Positions 7,148-20,193 of a stretch of DNA of 20,244 bases are shown piece by piece. Location of the stretch: IMG/VR virus record IMGVR_UViG_3300021368_001015, positions 1-20,244 of that record, one strand, 5' to 3'. The stretch's first letter is position 1, and every line of letters begins with the position of its first letter. This DNA comes from a virus. Below the pieces are notes generated by a model, which was not told where the DNA came from, did not search any database, and saw nothing but the letters and a program-made list of their open reading frames with translations. The translations under genes were made by a program, and so were the position numbers.

Positions 7148-9097
7148 ATGGCTGGATTAAATTCATTTGAAGACTTCACAAAGGCTAGATCACAAAGATT
7201 AGCTGAAGAGGAAGCACAAAAACAAACAGAGGCTAGAGAAGAAACTGCACGCAGTTTCAAAGATCTATTGGCAGAATACGGAGTAACAAAAGTATCTGAA
7301 CTAGACGAAGAAAAGAGAGGAGAGTTCTTTTCAAGATTAGAAGGTACTGATCTTAATGAATCACTTTCTCTAATTGAAGAGGGAACACGTTCATTCTTTG
7401 GTAAAATTAATAAAAAGGGAGACATTCAAGCTGTTTATATGCATTATGACGGTTATCCAGAAAATATGTTACCACTAATCAAGAAGGGTTACTCAGGATC
7501 TAAGAGAAAAAACATCGACGTTGTTATTCAAAATGGAGCAGGATCTGGTTTAGAGGCTGATCCAAAGAAGATTAATTATTATAACGACGATACGGAGACA
7601 ATGTCAGGAAACGCAGGCTACATTAGAGACTTTATTGGAGATGCTAAACAGTCATGGGCAGAATTCATCTATCTATATGATGAAAGAGACGGAAAATGGT
7701 ATATGGCAGATACTTATGAAGATAATGACCTAAAACCTGCATTTGAAACAGTTGAAACTACTCGTTTTGAAAAGTTTGTTTTTGAAGCAACTGGAAGTTT
7801 TCCAATCGAATATAAGAGAGATGCTAAGAAGGTAGTAACTCAATACAATCACCTATTTGGTAAGATGTACACAAGTTTAGTAGATGGTAAAAATATGCAA
7901 CTTGGGGCAGTTAAAGTTATTTTCCAAGCTGCAATGGAGGACGCTAATTTTTCTAGAGAGGGAAATGCAATTGCTAAAAATATCAAAGGAGCACTTTCTC
8001 CGATCGTAACAAAACCAAGCGGACTTGGTAATATTGAAGTTAAAGTTTCAGCGGATAGAATTAAAGTCGCATTATATAATGAAGCTTCTAGAATTTCAAA
8101 TGCCGCTGGCTGGGGAGGACAAGGAATCGTTGAAGGAACTGCACTATACCTAGATTCTATTGGAGAGAAAACAATGGCCGCAAAATTAATCGCTGATTTT
8201 CACGCTCAATTCGAAAGTAAAGAAGTACTAGAGGCTAGAATTCTTGAAGGAAATGAGTTTGGAGCTGCAAGAGCAAAGGCAATCGCAGACGGTGAAGATG
8301 AATTTGAGGTTGACGGTGAAACGTACAAAGTAACTTCAGTAGATAAAGAGGACAAAGAGAATGCAGAAGACTTTGCAGGAGAATCAGTAGTCAACGAATG
8401 GGGTTCTTCAGATCAAAGCATCATGAATCAACAAATCCATAAAGATGCTGGTAGTCCTAAGAAAATGCCATCACCTTTTGATAGAAAACTAAGAGATGCT
8501 GCGGAAAATGCAGTTGATTGGCACTGGGATGATTGGCCAGAATACAAAAGAGATAGAGATGGTTTAATTGACGATGCGGTTAGAGGTTACCTAAGAAGTT
8601 ATTTTAAGAAAGACTTTGAAATGATGGTTAAAATGTTTGAGCCAATGGAATCAGCGGATGTTGAAGTAAGCGAAGGTCTAAATAAGAGCGATGTACAATA
8701 TCAACTTCGCATAGCGTATAGTGGTAATACACCACCAAAAGTTACAAAACTTGATAAGAAAAAACTAGAGGTTAGATACGGATTTAAAGTAAATCCAGAC
8801 TATGTAATCGATCAAGTAAAGACACTATATCCAGAAGTAGAGTTAAATCACGTTGAGTGGAGAGATATTATGTCAGGTGGTGGAGTTCATTCATTTGATA
8901 TTAAAGAATCAGCAGTTACCGAAGCTGAAGTAAAATCAGATGATGACTTCAAAGAATATGCTTTTGCAGTACTTCAAAAAGCATTTGGAGATAAATTTGA
9001 CGAAGAAAAAGCACAAGAAATAGTCGATGGTTTAATTTCAAAACATAAAGGAGATTATGGTTCTATGGTAGGAGCTTTACAATCTTCACTAGGATAA
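7148..9097 (+). CDS. Multidomain putative internal (packaged) protein with HYDGYPE domain
   Basis: The 649-residue product looks modular. Residues 1-40 are charged and helical (NSFEDFTKA is only loosely like the targeting peptide; LAE at 18-20 is a possible cut). Residues 80-190 resemble a family marked by a tyrosine/cysteine-H-W/Y-DGYPE motif (YMHYDGYPENMLPLI, 98-111), with a late aromatic strand (EFIYLYDERDGKWYMAD). Residues 207-214 read FEKFVFE/A, an internal copy of the targeting peptide. A DGEDEFEVDGETYKV module (381-395) recurs in the gene at 15198. Several further (I/L/V)xE sites occur. I cannot assign a biochemical function. It is probably cargo or prohead core processed into fragments. 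It opens the accessory region behind a promoter-like motif. Confidence 0.6.
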   Translation: MAGLNSFEDFTKARSQRLAEEEAQKQTEAREETARSFKDLLAEYGVTKVSELDEEKRGEFFSRLEGTDLNESLSLIEEGTRSFFGKINKKGDIQAVYMHYDGYPENMLPLIKKGYSGSKRKNIDVVIQNGAGSGLEADPKKINYYNDDTETMSGNAGYIRDFIGDAKQSWAEFIYLYDERDGKWYMADTYEDNDLKPAFETVETTRFEKFVFEATGSFPIEYKRDAKKVVTQYNHLFGKMYTSLVDGKNMQLGAVKVIFQAAMEDANFSREGNAIAKNIKGALSPIVTKPSGLGNIEVKVSADRIKVALYNEASRISNAAGWGGQGIVEGTALYLDSIGEKTMAAKLIADFHAQFESKEVLEARILEGNEFGAARAKAIADGEDEFEVDGETYKVTSVDKEDKENAEDFAGESVVNEWGSSDQSIMNQQIHKDAGSPKKMPSPFDRKLRDAAENAVDWHWDDWPEYKRDRDGLIDDAVRGYLRSYFKKDFEMMVKMFEPMESADVEVSEGLNKSDVQYQLRIAYSGNTPPKVTKLDKKKLEVRYGFKVNPDYVIDQVKTLYPEVELNHVEWRDIMSGGGVHSFDIKESAVTEAEVKSDDDFKEYAFAVLQKAFGDKFDEEKAQEIVDGLISKHKGDYGSMVGALQSSLG

Positions 9098-10387
9098 ATG
9101 AATAAATTATATACATACGAAGAATTTTTAACGGAAAGAGAGGTCAGAAATACTGACCTCGAACCGTTATTTGAAGGTGGAGCATATGGCCACCTTACCC
9201 ATCCGTTTGAAGACTTAGGTTTAACAATGGCGGATGTAAAAGATATGATTGATGCTACAGTTCAAGGAGCATTTGGTCCAGAAAACTTCGTTCAAGAAAA
9301 AACTGACGGACAGCAGCTTTCAATTTCATGGAAGAATGGTCAACTAATTGCTGCAAGAAATAAGAGTCATCTTAAGAATGCTGGTGAAAACGCAATGACA
9401 GCAGCCGATCTTGCCGCAAAATTCAAAGACAGAGGAGACATTGAAATTGCATACAACACAGCAATGCGCGATCTAAGTGCTTCAATTGGAGCCCTTTCTC
9501 CTGGTGATAAAGAAAAGATGTTTGGTGAAGGTACAAAATTCGCAAGCGTCGAAATTATGACTCCAGTAACACAGAACACAGTTCCTTATGGTCAAGACCT
9601 TCTAGTATTTCATGGTATTGTAGAATACGACATTGATGGAAAAGTAGTTGGAGAAGATAAACAAGCCGGTAGAGATCTTGGTAAGATGATAGCAGACGCA
9701 AACGCTGCAGCACAAGAGATGTTCTATGTTCGTGGACCACAGGATATTCCTATCAAGCCATTTAAGAATACCAAAGCGAGAGCAAAGTATTATAATGACA
9801 AACTAAAAGGTATCATGCAGGATGCAGGTATTAACTTAAATTCAACAGTACAGGATTTTGTCGTTGGTAGAGCGGTTAACGTCGTTAGAGGACTTGACAT
9901 AGATATTCCAGAAGAGTCAATTGAAGGAATTGCTAATCGTCTTGGAGGAATCAACAAATCGTATAGTGTTGCTAAAATGAAAAAGGACATGGGTCCCGAT
10001 TTAACAAAGGAGTACAGTGATTTCGAGAAAAAGAATGAAAAGATGATTAAGAAGCAAATCTATGCTCCTCTTGAAAATCTTTTCCTAGAGGTTGGTACAG
10101 AGATGATGCAACATATGGAGGCTTTCTTATCCGCAAACCCAACACAGGCTGGAGAGCAGATGCGCAAAGAGATCGAGACTGCTATTAATACTATTAGAAA
10201 AAATGGAGATGCGACAGATGTTGAAAAACTTGAACATGAATTAAGTAGAGTTGCAGCAGTTGGAGGATTAGAGAACATTGTACCTACCGAAGGTATTACA
10301 TTTGTTTATAAAGGTAAAGTCTATAAGTACACTGGTATTTTTGCACCAATCCATCAAATTAGAAGTATCTTAGCATACAAAAAATAA
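9098..10387 (+). CDS. Ligase-like nucleotidyltransferase with capsid-targeting-like N-terminus
   Basis: The 429-residue protein starts MNKLYTYEEFLTE/R, a targeting-type leader with a possible cut after E13. The body carries the motifs of covalent nucleotidyltransferases (ATP-dependent ligases and capping enzymes): motif I EKTDGQQLSISW with K68 as the likely AMP-accepting lysine, ARNKSHLKNAG (86-96), a motif III-like FASVEIMTP (about 147-156), motif IV EGITFVYKG and motif V VYKYTG near the C-terminus (about 403-416). Large phages carry a similar ligase-like family of unclear substrate. It may seal or adenylylate RNA or DNA. If packaged, it would act at once after injection. It follows the previous stop without a gap. 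Confidence 0.7.
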   Translation: MNKLYTYEEFLTEREVRNTDLEPLFEGGAYGHLTHPFEDLGLTMADVKDMIDATVQGAFGPENFVQEKTDGQQLSISWKNGQLIAARNKSHLKNAGENAMTAADLAAKFKDRGDIEIAYNTAMRDLSASIGALSPGDKEKMFGEGTKFASVEIMTPVTQNTVPYGQDLLVFHGIVEYDIDGKVVGEDKQAGRDLGKMIADANAAAQEMFYVRGPQDIPIKPFKNTKARAKYYNDKLKGIMQDAGINLNSTVQDFVVGRAVNVVRGLDIDIPEESIEGIANRLGGINKSYSVAKMKKDMGPDLTKEYSDFEKKNEKMIKKQIYAPLENLFLEVGTEMMQHMEAFLSANPTQAGEQMRKEIETAINTIRKNGDATDVEKLEHELSRVAAVGGLENIVPTEGITFVYKGKVYKYTGIFAPIHQIRSILAYKK

Positions 10388-10395
10388 GGAGTAAA

Positions 10396-10644
10396 ATGAA
10401 ACACGTAAAGCTATTTGAACAATTTGTAAATGAAGCCGATAAGAAAATCGAGAAAGAGGCTAAAACATGGTGGGCTAAAACAATGAAGGGAAGAGATTCT
10501 TGGGATGCCGAAGACATGGACATGTTCATCGACTATTTAATGGATAAAGGTCTAGTAGATCCAAATTCAGATGAACTAAGTGATACTAGAGAAGAACTAG
10601 AATCATATGTTGATAACGTTCTAGGTTATGAGTTTGACTATTAA
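10396..10644 (+). CDS. Small putative internal protein, paralogue A1
   Basis: The 82-residue product starts with the full leader MKHVKLFEQFVNE/ADKK; a cut after E13 would leave 69 residues. The rest is helical and rich in Trp and acidic residues (TWWAKTMKGRDSWDAEDMDM, then a YLMDKGL helix and an ELESYVDNVLGYEFDY end). It is a clear paralogue of the gene at 10987, differing mainly near the C-terminus. An AGGAG lies before the ATG, unusual here as most neighbours lack a Shine-Dalgarno sequence. No known family is recognised; function unknown. Confidence 0.7.
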   Translation: MKHVKLFEQFVNEADKKIEKEAKTWWAKTMKGRDSWDAEDMDMFIDYLMDKGLVDPNSDELSDTREELESYVDNVLGYEFDY

Positions 10645-10662
10645 ATAAAATATAACACCAAG

Positions 10663-10977
10663 ATGAAACACATAAAACTATTCGAACAATATATTAATGA
10701 ATCTGTAAACGTTGATGAATTAATCAAGCACCTTGAAAATGAACTTGATTGGAATCATGGCACTGCTCAAGAAATGAAAAGTAAATTTGTTCCTTATGCT
10801 TTTCCAAAAGGACCTAAAGACACAAAAAATATTTTCATAACATATAGAGGTATGAAGGGCCAATCTATTGCAAAAGATATTAGAGAGGCTATTAAAGATT
10901 TTGGTGCAAAAGCTCTACAGGTTGTTAAAGAAAATGGTGATAATGAACATTATTATAATATAGAAATTAAAAGATAA
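10663..10977 (+). CDS. Small putative internal protein
   Basis: The 104-residue product starts MKHIKLFEQYINE/S, a targeting leader with a likely cut after E13. The mature part begins with a helix (VNVDELIKHLENELDW) and continues as alternating strands and helices ending in YYNIEIKR. It lies between the two paralogues at 10396 and 10987, with short AT-rich gaps of 18 and 9 bases. I recognise no family. Role as packaged cargo is inferred from the leader only. Confidence 0.65.
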   Translation: MKHIKLFEQYINESVNVDELIKHLENELDWNHGTAQEMKSKFVPYAFPKGPKDTKNIFITYRGMKGQSIAKDIREAIKDFGAKALQVVKENGDNEHYYNIEIKR

Positions 10978-10986
10978 AAAGAAGCA

Positions 10987-11244
10987 ATGAAACACATAAA
11001 ACTATTCGAACAATTTGTAAATGAAGCCGATAAGAAAATCGAGAAAGAGGCTAAAAAATGGTGGGCTAAAACAATGAAAGGAAGAGATGTTTGGGATAAC
11101 GAAGACATGGACATGTTTATTGACTATTTAATGGATAAAGGTCTTTACGATCCAAATACAGATCCAGATGAAATATATGCTACTATAGAAGAATTAGAAT
11201 CATATGTTGAAAACGTTCTAGGTTATGCGATGTGCAGATGTTAG
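10987..11244 (+). CDS. Small putative internal protein, paralogue A2
   Basis: The 85-residue product is a near-copy of that at 10396: same leader (MKHIKLFEQFVNE/A), same DKKIEKEAKxWWAKTMKGRD block and same DMDMFIDYLMDKGL helix. The end differs: ELESYVENVLGY is followed by AMCRC instead of EFDY, and the base alignment with A1 is interrupted there by an extra stretch containing an inverted repeat (11236-11261). The tail therefore looks altered after the duplication. Function unknown. Confidence 0.7.
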   Translation: MKHIKLFEQFVNEADKKIEKEAKKWWAKTMKGRDVWDNEDMDMFIDYLMDKGLYDPNTDPDEIYATIEELESYVENVLGYAMCRC

Positions 11245-11286: not shown

Positions 11287-11733
11287 ATGAAACACGTAAA
11301 ACTATTTGAACAATTTGTAAATGAAGCCGAGTACTATGGAGTAGACCGCGATACTGAAATGAGAGCAGGTGGAATAGGAGCATCTACTAATTATATGCCA
11401 TGGAAAAATTCAAAGGGTTTTGTTTCATCGGTTAAAAAATTCGTAAAACCTAGTGATATTCAATCTTTATCAACTAGTAGAGTTACAATTAAACCAGGTT
11501 CTAAAACATTTATGACATTTAACGCCAAAGATGGGTTTGATATTGACCAAGCTATAGAAACTATTAGACCAGGTTTAGAAAGAATGGCTAGAGTAGAATC
11601 TTTACATTTCTTAATCCAAGAAATTGACGCAAATTCATTTTCACTAAGTGCTAAAAAACCATACAATGCATTTACTGATGACTATGGTAAAGAACTTAAT
11701 ATAGATAAATCTAGTAGCTATTATATAGGCTAA
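11287..11733 (+). CDS. Putative internal protein of unknown function
   Basis: The 148-residue product starts MKHVKLFEQFVNE/AEYYG, with a leader almost base-identical to those at 10396 and 10987. The mature part has a glycine-rich start (RAGGIGAST), then alternating basic strands and a helix (DIDQAIETIRPGLERMARVES) and a final Ser/Tyr-rich end. Its upstream spacer (TTAAATAAAATATA) matches the one before 10663, so it seems to have received the leader in the same duplication while carrying a different body. No family is recognised. Confidence 0.65.
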   Translation: MKHVKLFEQFVNEAEYYGVDRDTEMRAGGIGASTNYMPWKNSKGFVSSVKKFVKPSDIQSLSTSRVTIKPGSKTFMTFNAKDGFDIDQAIETIRPGLERMARVESLHFLIQEIDANSFSLSAKKPYNAFTDDYGKELNIDKSSSYYIG

Positions 11734-11752: not shown

Positions 11753-12358
11753 ATGAAACACGTAAAACTATTCGAGCAGTTTATTAGTGAGGCGGTAGAC
11801 ACCACTCAACCAATTGAGGGTACTGAAGTCGTGGTAATGCCTGGTAGATTCCAGCCATTTCATAATGGACATATCGCAGCCCTTAAAAATGCTGCCAAAA
11901 TGTTTGGTAAGCCAGTAGTTGCGATGCAAATAGTTTCAAAGCGTGAAGAGTCTCCATTCCCAGAAAGCCTTCTACTTCAAATTGGACAAGAGGTTGCAAA
12001 GAACGAGAAGGAGATCGCAGATTTCTTTATTTACCCAAATAGCTATGGTAGAACAGTAATTCCTTGGTTTGTTAGATTCTTAAGAGAGCAAGGATATGAG
12101 ACTGTTGGTGTAGGTGCTGGAAGCGACAGAATCAAGGCATACACACCACAGATTAAATATGTTACTGGACCAAAGACCGATACGGTTGTACATCCGGATT
12201 TTAAACTAGAAATGGTAGATGCAAGAGCAGAAGGAGGACCTAGCGGTACAAAGACTAGAGAAGCACTTGCAAATGATGATAGAGAAGCATTCGAAAAGAT
12301 GGTGCCGAAATATCTTTATAAATACTATGACAAATTAAGAAAACACATAATAAAATAA
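11753..12358 (+). CDS. NMNAT-like adenylyl/cytidylyltransferase with capsid-targeting leader
   Basis: The 201-residue protein has the leader MKHVKLFEQFISE/A and then a complete nucleotidyltransferase HIGH-type domain. VVVMPGRFQPFHNGHIAAL (26-44) holds the GRFQPxHxGH motif (H37, H40) typical of NMN adenylyltransferases of the NadM/NadR type, and SGTKTREAL (164-172) corresponds to the family's ISSTxIR motif. VGVGAGSDR (118-126) fits the substrate loop. The enzyme would join ATP to NMN to make NAD, though a different substrate such as CTP-choline-type intermediates cannot be excluded. A leader on an enzyme suggests it is packaged and delivered. Full-length, with no missing motif. Confidence 0.8.
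   Translation: MKHVKLFEQFISEAVDTTQPIEGTEVVVMPGRFQPFHNGHIAALKNAAKMFGKPVVAMQIVSKREESPFPESLLLQIGQEVAKNEKEIADFFIYPNSYGRTVIPWFVRFLREQGYETVGVGAGSDRIKAYTPQIKYVTGPKTDTVVHPDFKLEMVDARAEGGPSGTKTREALANDDREAFEKMVPKYLYKYYDKLRKHIIK
12317..12324 (+). promoter_or_regulatory. T4-late-promoter-like TATAAATA inside a gene end
   Basis: An exact match to the T4 late promoter core lies in the last codons of the adenylyltransferase gene, about 100 bases before the start at 12425. In an AT-rich genome this can occur by chance, so it is only a candidate. Confidence 0.25.
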
Positions 12359-12424: not shown

Positions 12425-12778
12425 ATGAGATACGTTAAATTATTTGAGCAGTTTATAGGTGAATACACGATAACTGCTAAAGAAGTAGGAAGAGATAGAG
12501 GTGTAAAATTAAACCTGAGAAAAGCGGCTAAGATACTTAAAAAGGCTGGGTATCCGGCAACTATTGAAAAAGAGGGAATTCTGGCAAATAGAATGGATTA
12601 TATTCTGACTGGACCTAAATACAAAGATAATGATCGTGATTACGGATCTATTCGATTTTTTAGAAATGGAGAGGTTTTTGGTGATGACAACTGGGCTGAT
12701 GAAATTAATTCTGAAGATGATGTAATTCCAACAATTAAGGAATTTTTAAAAGACCAAATAGAATATCATAATAAGTAA
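12425..12778 (+). CDS. Small putative internal protein
   Basis: The 117-residue product starts MRYVKLFEQFIGE/Y, a leader variant with a likely cut after E13. The mature part is basic at first (GVKLNLRKAAKILKKAGYPA), reminiscent of small nucleic-acid or protein-binding domains, followed by strands (YGSIRFFRNGEVFGDDNW) and a C-terminal helix (IPTIKEFLKDQIEYHNK). I recognise no family. It follows the repeated terminator-like element and may start its own transcript. Confidence 0.65.
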   Translation: MRYVKLFEQFIGEYTITAKEVGRDRGVKLNLRKAAKILKKAGYPATIEKEGILANRMDYILTGPKYKDNDRDYGSIRFFRNGEVFGDDNWADEINSEDDVIPTIKEFLKDQIEYHNK

Positions 12779-12786
12779 AAATAGAG

Positions 12787-13902
12787 ATGAAATACGTTAA
12801 ATTATTTGAACAGTTTGTAAGTGAAGATAAGATTCCGCGATCAAACTTTTCTTCAAAGAGGGATCCTGAATCAATCCGCAGAGAGTACAAAAAACTTAAA
12901 AAGACGTCAACTGCTGAATTAAGAAAGATGTGGTCGCTAAGTTATAAAATTGGTAACCCTAAAGGGATTGACAAAGAAGGTCTAATCTCAGACATATTAC
13001 ATAATAAACACGGTCGTAAATATGTTGCAGCTGCGTTTGAACAGTTTGTAAGTGAAAGTGGTAATGCAATTGCACAGTCCAGACCATTTGAACAACATGA
13101 AGTTGCAGCAACTCTAGAATGGATCGAGAAAAATGTTTTTCCTCATATTGGAATTACTGGTATCGGAGAGGATGCTGCAGTTATTGGAAGCGCTGGAAAA
13201 AAGAATCCAGGAGAGACTAGCGGAGATATTGATATTGCTGTTTCTGCCGATAAGATTGCAGGACACTTAGACACTTCACTGGCTAAAGTTCTTTTCGATA
13301 TGAATGATTTATTGAAAGAAAAAGGGTTAGACACCTCAATGGCTGTAGGATTCCAGCAGGTATCAATCGCTGCTCCTATTGAGGGTAAATCAAATAATGG
13401 AGTAGGTCAAGTCGACCTAATGTTATCAAGAGATATTAATTGGAGTAGATTTATGTACCACTCTCCAGACTTTACAAAAGACGAGTCAAAATATAAAGGT
13501 GCATATAGAAACATCCTCCTAATGTCGGCAATTGGTAAATCATTTGTTGAGATTATAGATCAAACAGAAGAGGGAGAAACAAAAGAGTACGAAGCATATG
13601 TAATTCGCTTGAATCAAGGAGTTGTAAAGGTTCGTAAATCATTTGTTGGTAAGAGAGGATTGGTTAAAAACGCAAAGTTACTAAAAGAATTCGATAAAGA
13701 AATTACAAGACTACCAGAAGAGATAGCAGACCTTCTCTTCGATGGCGCAAAAGTAAGTGATTTAATGACATATGAGAGTTTAAGAGATTTAATTAACTCA
13801 TCAATGTTTAAGTTTCCTAAAAAGAGAGATGAGATCTTTAAAGAATTTGAAGTTAAACTAGGAATGTCAGGTCTGCCTCTACCAGAAGACATCGCTAAAT
13901 AA
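12787..13902 (+). CDS. Pol-beta-fold nucleotidyltransferase fused to a leader module
   Basis: The 371-residue protein has two leader copies. It starts MKYVKLFEQFVSE/D, followed by a small helical module (about 14-82; TSTAELRKMWSLSYK..DKEGLISDILHNKHGRKY), then an internal copy AFEQFVSE/S (83-90, bases 13033-13056). The rest is a nucleotidyltransferase: GSAGKKNPGETSGDIDIAV (134-152) gives the GS motif and D147/D149, and GQVDLML (207-213) supplies the third acid D210. Such domains add nucleotides to RNA, drugs or proteins; the substrate is unknown. Two cuts would release a short peptide and the enzyme. It looks like two former cargo genes joined in frame. Confidence 0.75.
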   Translation: MKYVKLFEQFVSEDKIPRSNFSSKRDPESIRREYKKLKKTSTAELRKMWSLSYKIGNPKGIDKEGLISDILHNKHGRKYVAAAFEQFVSESGNAIAQSRPFEQHEVAATLEWIEKNVFPHIGITGIGEDAAVIGSAGKKNPGETSGDIDIAVSADKIAGHLDTSLAKVLFDMNDLLKEKGLDTSMAVGFQQVSIAAPIEGKSNNGVGQVDLMLSRDINWSRFMYHSPDFTKDESKYKGAYRNILLMSAIGKSFVEIIDQTEEGETKEYEAYVIRLNQGVVKVRKSFVGKRGLVKNAKLLKEFDKEITRLPEEIADLLFDGAKVSDLMTYESLRDLINSSMFKFPKKRDEIFKEFEVKLGMSGLPLPEDIAK

Positions 13903-13909
13903 TAAAACT

Positions 13910-15175
13910 ATGGCACTACAAAGCTTACATACATATTTTGAATCAACGAATAGAGAAGATTTTATGGAGATGCTAAAGTCTCCATGTGTTGTTACTGAAA
14001 AAGTACAGGCATCTTCGTTTCACGTTCAAAACGATTCAGTTGGTTACACCTATTTTAAGAGTGGTAAAAAGAAGCCGTTGGATAAAGTAGATCGCACAAT
14101 CGCTAAATATTATGAGAATGCAATTAAATATTTTGAATCGGTTGACGACGTGACAAAGGCTGAAATGCCGCTTGACTGGAAGTTTGGTTTTGACTACATG
14201 ACAGACAGTCAAACAATTGACATTAAATACGATCAAACACCAAAGAACGGGCTTATCTTAACACATATTCAGGTAATGAACCCTCTAGACAATACACTAA
14301 TAAAGAAGGTTATTAGAGACCCAAAGGTTCTTTTTGAATGGGCAGATAAATTAGATGTTCAAAGACCACAGGTTGTTTTTAAAGGAGTATTGAGTTCTCA
14401 TCAGAAAGATGAGCTAGTAAAACTATTAGAAATGAGTGATGCCGAAAGAAATCAAGCATATGAAGCGTTAAGTTTTACCAGAAGAGCATATAACATTTTT
14501 AATAATTCGTTAAGTAAGACGGCTCTTAATGAAGATCTTGATGGAGATATTGATTCTTTAGTTATTAATTTCTTTGATGGCAAGACGGTAAAAAACTTTA
14601 AACTTAGTGGAACAAAAACTGAGGTTAGTGAGTCTAGAAAACCAAGCGACACATATCAAATTTCACTATTAGACCTAGTTGAGTTCTTTTCTGAATATGA
14701 TGTTGATAATATTCAACTTGAATCAGACCAAGCAGACGAGAGATACATTGAACTAATTTCAAATGTATTTAACGCATATGTTAATGAGAATGCAGCAAAA
14801 TATGTTGGTGTTAGTTTTGATTCCGCAGACTTTAGTGATCGACCTGAATTTGAATTGAATACTAAATTTATCAAGAACGAAAAGACAATTGAATACGTAA
14901 ACAATAGGGTTCTTTCAGAACTATATAAGATTGCAATTGGTTCATTTAGAAAGAAAAGAGCAAAAGAGACTGATATTATAAATGCAGACTTAATGGAGCA
15001 AATCAATACAATTGTCGATAAAATTGAGGCAATTGTTATGTTAAAGAGTAACGAATCAAGCGTAATGCCTTTTAAGACTTATTTGAACCATCAAAAGTTA
15101 AAAACACAAGAGAGTCCTATCGATGAGTCGAATCTTCTTACGTTTTCTCAGTTCTTAGTTAAGAAAGATATATAA
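13910..15175 (+). CDS. RNA-ligase-like nucleotidyltransferase (no capsid-targeting leader)
   Basis: The 421-residue protein begins MALQSLHTYFESTN without a recognisable leader, so it may act outside the packaged set. It resembles covalent nucleotidyltransferases: motif I TEKVQASSFHV (29-39, candidate lysine K31), a conserved YFKSGKKKPLDKVDRTI block (48-64), WKFGFDYMTDSQTIDIKYD (90-108) in motif III position with PKNGLILTHI, DSLVINFFDG (215-224) as motif IV and VKNFKLSG (227-234) as motif V. Motif I lacks the usual DG after the lysine, so activity is uncertain. RNA ligases of T4 repair tRNA cut by host anticodon nucleases; a similar use is inference. The C-terminal third is helical. Confidence 0.6.
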   Translation: MALQSLHTYFESTNREDFMEMLKSPCVVTEKVQASSFHVQNDSVGYTYFKSGKKKPLDKVDRTIAKYYENAIKYFESVDDVTKAEMPLDWKFGFDYMTDSQTIDIKYDQTPKNGLILTHIQVMNPLDNTLIKKVIRDPKVLFEWADKLDVQRPQVVFKGVLSSHQKDELVKLLEMSDAERNQAYEALSFTRRAYNIFNNSLSKTALNEDLDGDIDSLVINFFDGKTVKNFKLSGTKTEVSESRKPSDTYQISLLDLVEFFSEYDVDNIQLESDQADERYIELISNVFNAYVNENAAKYVGVSFDSADFSDRPEFELNTKFIKNEKTIEYVNNRVLSELYKIAIGSFRKKRAKETDIINADLMEQINTIVDKIEAIVMLKSNESSVMPFKTYLNHQKLKTQESPIDESNLLTFSQFLVKKDI

Positions 15176-15197: not shown

Positions 15198-17294
15198 ATG
15201 AATTTTCAAGATTTTTTAAATGAGGGAAGTAAAATAACCCTTAAGAGAAGATACACTGAAAATCACCCTGCAGTACAAGTTGGAAAAAGCGCTAGAGTTA
15301 GAAATAAAATGCTTGAAGCAATTGCCGACGGAAAAATTACGCAGGAAGAATTTGATGCAATCTTAAAAGAATATTCTAAAGATTCTTCAAAGTGGATCAG
15401 AAGAAATACAAAATACTTTAACGTTTCGGAAGAAGGTATCTCGCTTTCTACATTTGGAAAAAGAGCGCTTTCGCAAATTGCAATCATTGAAGAAGGAAGA
15501 GCGTTTGTAGCTGCCGCTAAGAAAGCAAAAGACGAAGGTAAAGAAGAATTTGAATTTGACGGAGAAACTTTCCCAGTTACAATTAAAGAAAACTCAGAAG
15601 AGCTAGAAGAAGAGTTAGAGGAAAAAGCTCCAAACCTAGCTAAAAAGCTGGCTCCAGGACTTACAGGAGCCCTAGCAGATACAATTGGTGTACCTAGAGG
15701 AACTGGCCTTGATGCTAGCGTAATCGATGATGAGGACGGCGATGGTGTTGAAGACGAAGAAGATGATGATCAACTTCACGAGACCGATTGGTTAAAAAAA
15801 CATAAAAAACCTACCCACCTATCTAAATCCAAAAAGCCAGCAATTGAAGTGTCTGTAAGATACGCTAGAGAAGCTGGTGAAGCATTTAGAGTTGATTACT
15901 CTAAAATGGGTAAGATGACTTCTGCCAATACATTCGAATTTAAGAATAGAGATGATGCAGAAGAGTTTGCAGAGTATTTAATGGATTACATTGATATCCC
16001 TGAAGAAGAAATTACAGGATGGAACTTCGATGAATCTTTTGTTAACGAAGCTGATAAATTTGAAAAAGAGGCTAAACAAATCTTAAATGATTTAATGGAT
16101 GAGTTTGATCCGTGGGAATTAACAGAGATGATGCCCGAAGAGGCTGAAGAAACAGTTGCAACTTATGGACATAAAGGTTCAAAAGCTAAAAAGATTGCCG
16201 ACCACCTTTACAACCTAGCATCAACAGGAACATTTGAATCAAAAAATAATAAAAATAATAAAGAAATGAAAAATAATTTTATATACGAATCATTTAATGA
16301 ATTCGTTGAAACACTAAAAGAGTCAGTTAATGAATCTGAAGAGATGATTGCAGAAGCATTTCAATCAATGAAGTTACAGTCAATCTTAACGGGCGCAAGC
16401 TCTATGCAAAAAGATTTTGCTAAAGTGTTCTACGGTATGGCAAAGATTCAACTTGATAAAATCCAAGATGTAGATATTATCGAAATGGATCCAGTTGAAG
16501 CAAGAAAAGAAAAGAGAAACAATGCGGTTTATCTGTATTTTACAACCAATGAAAAGGAGAACCCATATGCAGCGGACTCCTGGCACAAAACTATTCCCGC
16601 AAACACACTATTAGGTGCAACTAATGGAAAAAATGAATGGCTTGCCAGTGGATATCAAAGGAGACTAGGAGGATCAAGAGATAGAACATTAAAAACATCT
16701 AAAAAAGAAGATGCTGTTGGGTTTAATAAATCTAACGCTAGAGACTCATGGGGATCTGGAATCTCAAGTATTACTAAAGTAGCTGAACTTGCTGATAGAG
16801 CATATGTTCTTGATCTTGACATTTTAAAAGCAAGATATTCTACCTCGGCAAAACGTGATGAAAGAACTACTGCAAGAAAAGGAGCAATCGCGTTTAAAAA
16901 TGATAAAGACTTTAAGAAAGAAAATCTTGACAGATACCACATGATCCTAGCAGATAGAGCTGCTAAAATGCCTATCGATAAAGAAGTCTTAAATGCAATT
17001 GATGTAGTTACCTCTCAAATTAAAGATGGTTTAGCTACTGGTGCTAAAGGAAAATGGGGAGATGTTATCATCGGAAAGGATCCTAAAGGCCGTGAGGTTA
17101 AACTAAGAGATGCTTCAAACGCAATGCAAAATCTTCTAGATGATTTTAACAGATATGTAGACTATACAAATCAAGCAAAGCGTGAAGAAGAAGAAGGATA
17201 TAGTAGCAATTACTATTCAAGAGAAGTGAAGAACTACGCTAAGTCAATTAAAGACAGAATCTCTAAGATTAAAAAAATGGATTACGTTTGGTAA
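15198..17294 (+). CDS. Large modular putative internal protein (possible polyprotein)
   Basis: The 698-residue product starts MNFQDFLNE/G, a short leader with a likely cut after E9. Modules follow: a helical part with a DGETFPV motif (121-127, matching the gene at 7148), a very acidic stretch DDEDGDGVEDEEDDD (177-191) like calcium-binding loops, a strand-helix domain (214-275), an internal leader SFVNE/A (280-285, bases 16035-16052), a helical module to 345, a low-complexity ESKNNKNNKE linker (347-356), and from M357 a new leader-like start MKNNFIYESFNEF. The final 300 residues have no family I know. The linker bases (AT-rich, ending in ATG at 16266) look like a former intergenic spacer, so two genes probably fused. 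Fragments are likely produced by the prohead protease. Confidence 0.65.
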   Translation: MNFQDFLNEGSKITLKRRYTENHPAVQVGKSARVRNKMLEAIADGKITQEEFDAILKEYSKDSSKWIRRNTKYFNVSEEGISLSTFGKRALSQIAIIEEGRAFVAAAKKAKDEGKEEFEFDGETFPVTIKENSEELEEELEEKAPNLAKKLAPGLTGALADTIGVPRGTGLDASVIDDEDGDGVEDEEDDDQLHETDWLKKHKKPTHLSKSKKPAIEVSVRYAREAGEAFRVDYSKMGKMTSANTFEFKNRDDAEEFAEYLMDYIDIPEEEITGWNFDESFVNEADKFEKEAKQILNDLMDEFDPWELTEMMPEEAEETVATYGHKGSKAKKIADHLYNLASTGTFESKNNKNNKEMKNNFIYESFNEFVETLKESVNESEEMIAEAFQSMKLQSILTGASSMQKDFAKVFYGMAKIQLDKIQDVDIIEMDPVEARKEKRNNAVYLYFTTNEKENPYAADSWHKTIPANTLLGATNGKNEWLASGYQRRLGGSRDRTLKTSKKEDAVGFNKSNARDSWGSGISSITKVAELADRAYVLDLDILKARYSTSAKRDERTTARKGAIAFKNDKDFKKENLDRYHMILADRAAKMPIDKEVLNAIDVVTSQIKDGLATGAKGKWGDVIIGKDPKGREVKLRDASNAMQNLLDDFNRYVDYTNQAKREEEEGYSSNYYSREVKNYAKSIKDRISKIKKMDYVW

Positions 17295-18550: not shown

Positions 18551-19102
18551 ATGAAACACTTAAATAACTTTGAATCATTTGTAAATGAAGCTAGTGAACT
18601 TACAAATGAGGCAATCACATTTCAAGATCTTGTAAATAAGTATAAAGACAACCCATATGGCATAGGTGCAAACTCTGTTGAGTATGTCGAAAGTGAAAAC
18701 TGGGGTAATCAATTAGTTTTAAGATTTGAAGATAATTACGATCGCAAAGAAACTGAAGCTAAACTTAAAAAGATGGGCATCAAAGCTAAAACGATGTCAA
18801 AGTCTACAGCAGATAAAGCATTTAAGTACAGATACGAACTTACAGTTAATGAATCTAAAGTCAATGAAGAATATATTGAACTACCGAGTTTTGATGTACC
18901 AGCAACGAACCTAATTGAAGAGTTTAAAGATTGGTATAAAGAAACTGCAAATAATTGGGAAGATTTTTCAAGATATATGTCCGAAGATTCTGTTGATGAA
19001 GCTGCTAAGAATGCTCAGATGGAAATCTTAGCCTACCTTTCTAACGAGATGAATAACATTATTAAAGATAGAAAGTTTAAAGTTAGAGCGGACTTTAGAT
19101 AA
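18551..19102 (+). CDS. Putative internal protein
   Basis: The 183-residue product starts MKHLNNFESFVNE/ASE; bases of this leader are almost identical to those at 18255. A second possible cut follows LTNE (E21), and LTVNE and KVNE occur near residues 97-104, dividing the protein into a strand-helix domain (about 25-95, with NQLVLRFEDNYDRKETEAKLKK) and a C-terminal helical domain. It may be processed to two fragments. No family is recognised. Confidence 0.6.
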   Translation: MKHLNNFESFVNEASELTNEAITFQDLVNKYKDNPYGIGANSVEYVESENWGNQLVLRFEDNYDRKETEAKLKKMGIKAKTMSKSTADKAFKYRYELTVNESKVNEEYIELPSFDVPATNLIEEFKDWYKETANNWEDFSRYMSEDSVDEAAKNAQMEILAYLSNEMNNIIKDRKFKVRADFR

Positions 19103-19587: not shown

Positions 19588-20193
19588 ATGAAGGTAATCT
19601 TTTTGGACAATGATGGTGTAATCTGCCTCTCAAATAACTGGGGCACTCGCTTTAAAAAACAGAGGGCATTCTTTACCGAAGATAACCCCCGTAGAGGCTT
19701 TGGTGCTAATGGGCCAGTTGAAGTGCGTTTCGATAACTTTGACAAGAAAGCAGTCAAATTACTTAACTCAATCCTAGAAGAAACAGGAGCGGAGATAGTA
19801 GTATCATCAGATTGGAGATTTCATGCAAACCTGGAAGAATTGGGAGATTACTACGAGTCTCAGGGTATTATAAAGAGACCGATTGACGCTACTGGAATGT
19901 TTAAAGACTTATTTCCAAGTGAATGGTCGAGGTTGAGATCTAGGGCAGATCTTGAATTAGAGCGCAGTATGGAAATTCAACACTGGTTAGATAACAACGA
20001 GGTTACGGACTGGGTTGCAATTGATGATTTAGATATGGGAGTTGAATTCTTAGGAGATAGGTTTGCGGCAAAAGATGGCTCGGATAATAAGCCAGGTTTA
20101 ATCAATTTTGTACATACTCCAAGATCTAACGAAGGAATTAAGCAGTCCGGCATAAAGGATAAAATACTTAAATTTTTAAATGATAATAAATGA
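19588..20193 (+). CDS. HAD-superfamily phosphatase (RNA-repair-type HAD domain)
   Basis: I start at the ATG at 19588, since the longer frame from a TTG at 19498 would translate through the terminator. The 201-residue protein has HAD motif I FLDNDGV (5-11, nucleophile D7 and acid D9), motif II SSDWR (73-77) and the late acidic AIDDLDM (144-150). The DWRFHANLEEL pattern (75-85) resembles the HAD domain found in RNA repair proteins. Such enzymes remove phosphate from nucleic-acid ends or nucleotides. The substrate is not shown. It may complement the ligase-like proteins upstream. It carries no capsid-targeting leader, and its stop overlaps the next ATG by four bases. Confidence 0.75.
   Translation: MKVIFLDNDGVICLSNNWGTRFKKQRAFFTEDNPRRGFGANGPVEVRFDNFDKKAVKLLNSILEETGAEIVVSSDWRFHANLEELGDYYESQGIIKRPIDATGMFKDLFPSEWSRLRSRADLELERSMEIQHWLDNNEVTDWVAIDDLDMGVEFLGDRFAAKDGSDNKPGLINFVHTPRSNEGIKQSGIKDKILKFLNDNK

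Follow-up and report, generated by a model that had tools for sequence, protein, structure and literature searches.

A leader-tagged HIGH-superfamily adenylyltransferase of T4-like phages and its possible part in capsid-delivered nucleic-acid repair

We identified a HIGH-superfamily nucleotidyltransferase of 201 amino acids (positions 11753–12358, + strand) in a 20,244-base IMG/VR virus record (the window, that is, the whole stretch of DNA analysed here). Its N-terminus resembles the capsid-targeting sequence (CTS) of phage T4 internal proteins, and RNA-ligase-like proteins are encoded next to it or, in relatives, joined to it by fusion. Our best explanation, to which we give an even chance as a whole, is that of a capsid-delivered adenylyltransferase working with RNA-ligase-like partners in nucleic-acid repair. 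The N-terminal leader would carry the ATP-type (adenylyl) transferase into a T4-like prohead, where the S77 prohead protease would cut it after the glutamate of FISE/A (the slash marks the predicted cut) and free the enzyme. The freed enzyme would be packaged alongside the DNA and reach the host at infection, and would act together with the RNA-ligase-like protein at 9098–10387, a Pol-beta nucleotidyltransferase and an RNA-repair phosphatase, all encoded alongside. Such a kit could mend or protect nucleic acid ahead of phage gene expression, the most plausible target being tRNA that host defence has cleaved.

The enzyme and its leader

The open reading frame starts with ATG and encodes MKHVKLFEQFISEAVDTTQPIEGTEVVVMPGRFQPFHNGHIAAL...GPSGTKTREAL..., with the (H/T)xGH motif in GRFQPFHNGH together with GSDR and SGTKTR. 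Both PF01467 (Pfam, E 1e-7) and TIGR00125 (adenylyltransferase/cytidyltransferase) matched above their cut-offs, and PHROGs 'cytidyltransferase' families matched at 1e-11 and 2e-9. AlphaFold2, with a 16-sequence alignment, predicted a confident HIGH fold (mean pLDDT 84) in which residues 1–16 scored below 50, as expected for a removable leader. With (H/T)xGH in a Rossmann-like fold and SxTxxR, the protein is, by its motifs and predicted fold, a HIGH-superfamily nucleotidyltransferase of the adenylyltransferase type; the earlier note, which had read a complete HIGH-type nucleotidyltransferase from GRFQPFHNGH and SGTKTREAL, was correct in this. We take the SGTKTR/SATxVR motif of the family to indicate an adenylyl rather than a cytidylyl donor, and adenylyl transfer is the likely chemistry. 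A DNA-level search of phage records returned no matches, and six window proteins had none in PADLOC. Scans of viral contigs yielded 33 loci and then 80 loci, and in the second scan 363 places were confirmed as relatives.

The leader, MKHVKLFEQFISE/A (11753–11794, + strand), has a predicted prohead-protease cut after E13, a residue that is invariant in 16 homologues. T4 IPII and IPIII begin with MKTYQEFIAE/A, and [FY]xxF[ILV]xE/A is common to IPIII and the window leader. Mutational mapping of IPIII assigned targeting mainly to residues 4 and 7, and processing to residues 8 and 10 (PMC9026906); residues matching these determinants occur in MKHVKLFEQFISE/A with the same spacing, three residues later. 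The enzyme has at its N-terminus the arrangement aromatic-x-x-aromatic-[ILV]-x-E that defines T4-type CTS cargo leaders.

We compared the frequency of a strict leader pattern, [FY]xx[FYW][ILVMT]xE, in the first 24 residues of proteins with that in internal segments of 24 amino acids. The pattern was found in 11 of the 26 non-overlapping ORFs of the window as against 4 of 225 internal segments (p=2e-9), and the leader that had been proposed for the enzyme is thus present above chance. It was also enriched in the 166.6-kb relative G002 (19/203 N-termini, 16/1840 internal; p=4e-11), in G014 (33/342 and 14/2727; p=7e-22) and in G006 (13/208 and 13/1903; p=2e-7), and more weakly in G008, where the leader is scarce (7/217 N-termini; p=0.003). 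The 49 leader-pattern proteins of three genomes were alignable in the leader only, with a mean column identity of 7%, and gave the leader consensus MKxIxTFxxFLNE. Among homologues of the enzyme, a looser version of the pattern is kept in 24 of 25 unique stand-alone proteins. Of 60 unique homologues, 59 have an [ILVF]xE site no more than 26 residues ahead of the HIGH domain, with a background of 40%, and 44 have the stricter [ILVF]xE[AG], with a background of 10%. The HIGH domain lacks the leader in the stand-alone relatives L099 and Moby and in a contig from a cellular bin (L202).

Comparison with T4 and packaging

The window encodes gp32, a primase and a DNA helicase, and a related contig (G001, locus L002) with a 100% identical enzyme encodes the S77 prohead protease and gp23; on these grounds a T4-like origin is indicated for the window. 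Both the S77 protease and gp23 were present in all eight related contigs first tested, and a T4-like portal was found in G002; the protease, portal and gp23 genes all lie outside the 20-kb window. Between portal and protease, G002 and G006 each have a small acidic gene that bears the leader, at the position of gp67/gp68 in T4. The leader on this gene is the strongest non-experimental argument that it is a prohead-core signal. In G002 the S77 protease ORF (43482–45410; L054:5482–7410) encodes 642 amino acids and is three times as long as T4 gp21; a scaffold may be fused to it as its C-terminal portion.

We conclude from this comparison that the product of 11753–12358 is likely to be packaged in the head. 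The earlier note had called it a packaged NMN adenylyltransferase, and the leader match, the gp67/68-position gene, the S77 protease and gp23 all speak for the first half of that name; the NMN role fares less well, as described below. A different account would have the enzyme outside the head, the leader serving for docking to some other phage structure, or being a shared translation-initiation cassette copied with genes. The packaging evidence is indeed comparative for all members of the family, and the residue after the leader is not always A (R, K, T or D in some leader proteins), where a change of residue 10 in the T4 leader can block cutting (PMC9026906). However, the spacing and residues fit the mapped T4 signal, the gp67/68-position gene carries the leader, and fusions retain the xE site internally, where an initiation signal would be needless; we regard this account as very unlikely.

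The likeness to the CTS of T4 IPI–IPIII and Alt extends beyond the N-terminal M-K...[YF]xxF[IT]xE/A leader to the T4-type portal, S77 protease and gp23, and to the placing of one leader ahead of diverse, unrelated mature proteins. Compared with T4, the leader of the phage family has about three extra residues, many more genes per genome are tagged (33 in G014 and 19 in G002 by the strict pattern), and enzymes are among the tagged proteins, as are polyprotein-like fusions whose domains are separated by xEA sites. What these phages probably have is a variant of the T4 CTS cargo system, unusually expanded to enzymes and polyprotein-like fusions. T4 itself packages few CTS-tagged proteins, among them IPI*, an injected anti-restriction protein (PMC3012670) that blunts host defence at injection, whereas its relatives apparently tag dozens of proteins, recognisable enzymes included, with the same signal. 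If this is true, phage counter-defence enzymes could be listed by reading leaders, and the repair of damaged tRNA could start ahead of the first phage transcript.

RNA-ligase-like partners and the acceptor

Motifs, an AlphaFold2 model and Foldseek matches together point to an RNA-ligase-like covalent nucleotidyltransferase at 9098–10387 (+ strand; leader MNKLYTYEEFLTE). Its KxDG motif I (K68, D70, G71) is invariant in 24 sequences, and E152, E398-G399 and K410 resemble motif III, IV and V residues. With the model (pLDDT 86), the top Foldseek matches in the PDB were T4 Rnl1, the fungal tRNA ligase Trl1 and Rnl2; the top matches were all RNA or DNA ligases and individually weak (best E 4e-3, TM about 0.2). 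Pfam, PHROGs and PDB profile searches gave no usable matches for this family or for that of 13910–15175, and only the AlphaFold2 model of the 9098 protein was informative. The protein at 13910–15175 (+ strand; EKVQASSFHV) is a second, weaker ligase-like candidate, so called by its motifs only because profile comparison found no relation to the 9098 family; the lysine of its family is lost in some relatives.

A Pol-beta-type nucleotidyltransferase is predicted at 12787–13902 (+ strand; leader MKYVKLFEQFVSE), where GS..SGDxD..QxD, with all three acids, is invariant in 13 homologues and Pfam returned weak palm matches only. We considered membership in RlaP for this protein and rejected it, a Pfam match being absent. 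It also holds an internal copy of the leader, FEQFVSE/S, at the place where single-domain relatives begin; relatives with a single leader exist (for example, G002 69944–70828), and the gene seems to have gained an additional leader-plus-domain cassette at its front. The window further encodes a HAD phosphatase of the 'Swiss Army Knife RNA repair' type (SAK-HAD; 19588–20193, + strand; PF18143, E 1.3e-22), which has no leader.

The association with ligase-like genes is widespread, a 9098-type gene lying within about 5 kb of the HIGH domain in 70 of the 80 loci and a 13910-type gene in 62 of 80. The majority of distant relatives carry the HIGH domain as a C-terminal fusion to a 13910–15175 homologue, with an [ILV]xEA-like site directly ahead of it, and in Microcystis phage Mel-JY01 it is fused directly in front of a 9098-type protein. 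Three loci (L032, L133 and L079) have, fused ahead of the HIGH domain, a relative of the N-terminal domain of the large leader protein of the window (15198–17294, + strand; MNFQDFLNE). L101 and L095 are polyprotein-like forms in which a leader-like segment separates the enzyme from another domain. A leader-type site is kept across every architecture, stand-alone and fused. Because the enzyme stands beside, or is fused to, RNA-ligase-like proteins, an injected RNA-repair kit is likelier than a NAD-making one, and the gene arrangement leads us to favour a reading in which the enzyme and its RNA-ligase-like partners would act together on damaged nucleic acid.

A review covers what such enzymes do in RNA repair (PMC7824862). 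Like the phage RNA-repair systems described there (T4 Rnl1/PseT; RlaP, CCA-adding enzyme, SAK-HAD), these phages have RNA-ligase-like, Pol-beta nucleotidyltransferase, SAK-HAD, CCA-adding and P-loop kinase proteins. They differ in that several of the enzymes carry a capsid-targeting leader and that the HIGH nucleotidyltransferase is fused or adjacent to a ligase. Neither leader-tagged repair enzymes nor a fusion or adjacency of this kind is described in the passages of that review consulted, and term searches of the literature for a CTS-tagged RNA ligase or adenylyltransferase returned no papers.

NadM-type chemistry joins AMP to a 5′-phosphate, and for this reason the acceptor of the HIGH enzyme may be a 5′-phosphate end. 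A bolder version, which we consider decidedly unlikely, is that the T4-like lineage loads an RNA-repair kit into its capsid by means of the shared cleavable leader, in some members as polyproteins that the prohead protease would cut inside the head. The kit would comprise the RNA-ligase-like protein, the Pol-beta nucleotidyltransferase, the CCA-adding enzyme, the kinase and the HIGH adenylyltransferase, the last having shifted from NMN to a nucleic-acid 5′-phosphate and making an activated end for the ligase.

The earlier note had instead proposed that an NMN adenylyltransferase enters along with the DNA and, once a host defence has destroyed NAD, makes it anew from NMN. The leader is in keeping with the delivery, and NadM (archaeal, NMNAT-Nudix) has the HIGH fold, GRFQPFHxGH and SGT/SATxxR in common with the window enzyme. 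A family profile searched against solved structures placed NadM first (1f9a, 4e-12; 1ej2, 1e-8), ahead of PPAT (5e-6), and most homologues had NadM as their closest NCBIfam model. All of the curated NadM models, however, scored far under their cut-offs, the window enzyme reaching 26.9 bits against a curated threshold of 127 and 21.5 against 181, and the Nudix domain is missing. Structure comparison, which the note had suggested for NadM, did recover NMNAT by Foldseek, but NadD and PPAT scored alike and the three were inseparable; FAD synthetase was also matched. Our genome scan for cellular relatives found mostly archaeal or CPR NadM-like proteins, with a search pattern that was built on GRFQPF and is hence biased towards such proteins. 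When a tree was built together with cellular NadM-like sequences, those of the phages grouped in one clade on a long branch, with a support of 0.88 alone and of 1.00 when the very divergent cellular L227 was included.

Nearly all of the cellular NadM proteins compared share a tryptophan in the loop or helix after strand 4, as placed by sequence alignment, and all 60 phage sequences have I, V, P or L in its place. This tryptophan is known as the residue that stacks on nicotinamide. Its loss argues against NMN use, with a weight that is limited because the comparison is an alignment of sequences only and a Trp lies two residues further on in the window's own subclade.

The genomic setting also bears on NAD synthesis. 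The nicotinamide set free by NADases is of no use to an NMN adenylyltransferase on its own. Phage NAD salvage and NARP1 (NadV, NadM/NadR, Adps/Namat) likewise employ a HIGH adenylyltransferase, in NadV–NadM/NadR salvage, whereas 24 of the 28 related records, which may be incomplete, lack the PF04095 partner (NadV, PncB or Namat type), although every NadM phage surveyed in PMC9503650 also carries NadV; the window itself spans only 20 kb. With PF04095 in only four records (G015, G021, G023 and LR756500), we rejected the salvage reading; G023 has, moreover, a separate NadD-like gene near its NadV. Namat itself is Nampt-like and not a HIGH enzyme (PMC12774641). Alt/ART, Macro, NADAR and Nudix domains were absent among the 49 leader proteins of three genomes and among the ten leader proteins of G002 that were scanned. 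Taken with the missed cut-offs, the separate clade, the lost tryptophan and the ligase-like fusions and neighbours, the rarity of PF04095 tells against the NMN/NAD role, and we hold NMN to be a possible but unlikely acceptor.

An equally unlikely account makes the protein a packaged cargo enzyme whose acceptor is some other small molecule (a sugar phosphate, pantetheine phosphate or a signalling nucleotide) and whose role has nothing to do with RNA or NAD. The spread of Foldseek matches across NadD, PPAT, NMNAT and FAD synthetase fits this account, as does an acceptor pocket that is not conserved with any named family, and PMC7824862 assigns other phage HIGH nucleotidyltransferases to NDP-sugar synthesis. 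It is opposed by the repeated linkage and fusion of the HIGH domain to ligase-like proteins, and we recognised no sugar or coenzyme genes beside the enzyme in the window.

Wider leader cargo

In G002, leader-like starts were found on a CCA-adding enzyme (137480–138634; L059:4480–5634; 1.7e-34), an HD protein (144897–145772; L059:11897–12772) and a P-loop kinase (125095–126063; L058:11095–12063). The leader cargo of G014, G006 and G008 is wider than RNA repair and includes RimK-like, GNAT, KTSC and PAP2 domains.

Several further genes on the + strand of the window have the leader pattern. Three encode small leader proteins, at 10396–10644 (with no Pfam match), 10663–10977 (MKHIKLFEQYINES) and 10987–11244 (MKHIKLFEQFVNEA), the first being a paralogue of the third; the two are near-identical, as in a tandem duplication with one gene between the copies. 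Others lie at 11287–11733 (MKHVKLFEQFVNEA), 12425–12778 (MRYVKLFEQFIGE) and 18551–19102 (MKHLNNFESFVNEA). At 7148–9097, the window encodes a 649-aa protein with a phrog_1987 domain and a leader-like start, MAGLNSFEDFTKA.

The fusion proteins L096–L143 end in a tail, LLTFxQFxxK, that resembles the leader; by analogy with T4 Alt, which is cut at both ends (PMC9026906), it may be a C-terminal propeptide. A bacterial bin contains the same cassette on an Erysipelotrichales MAG contig (L202, JAFLUY010000008.1), with a Pol-beta nucleotidyltransferase, a KVDG ligase-like protein and a leaderless HIGH enzyme.
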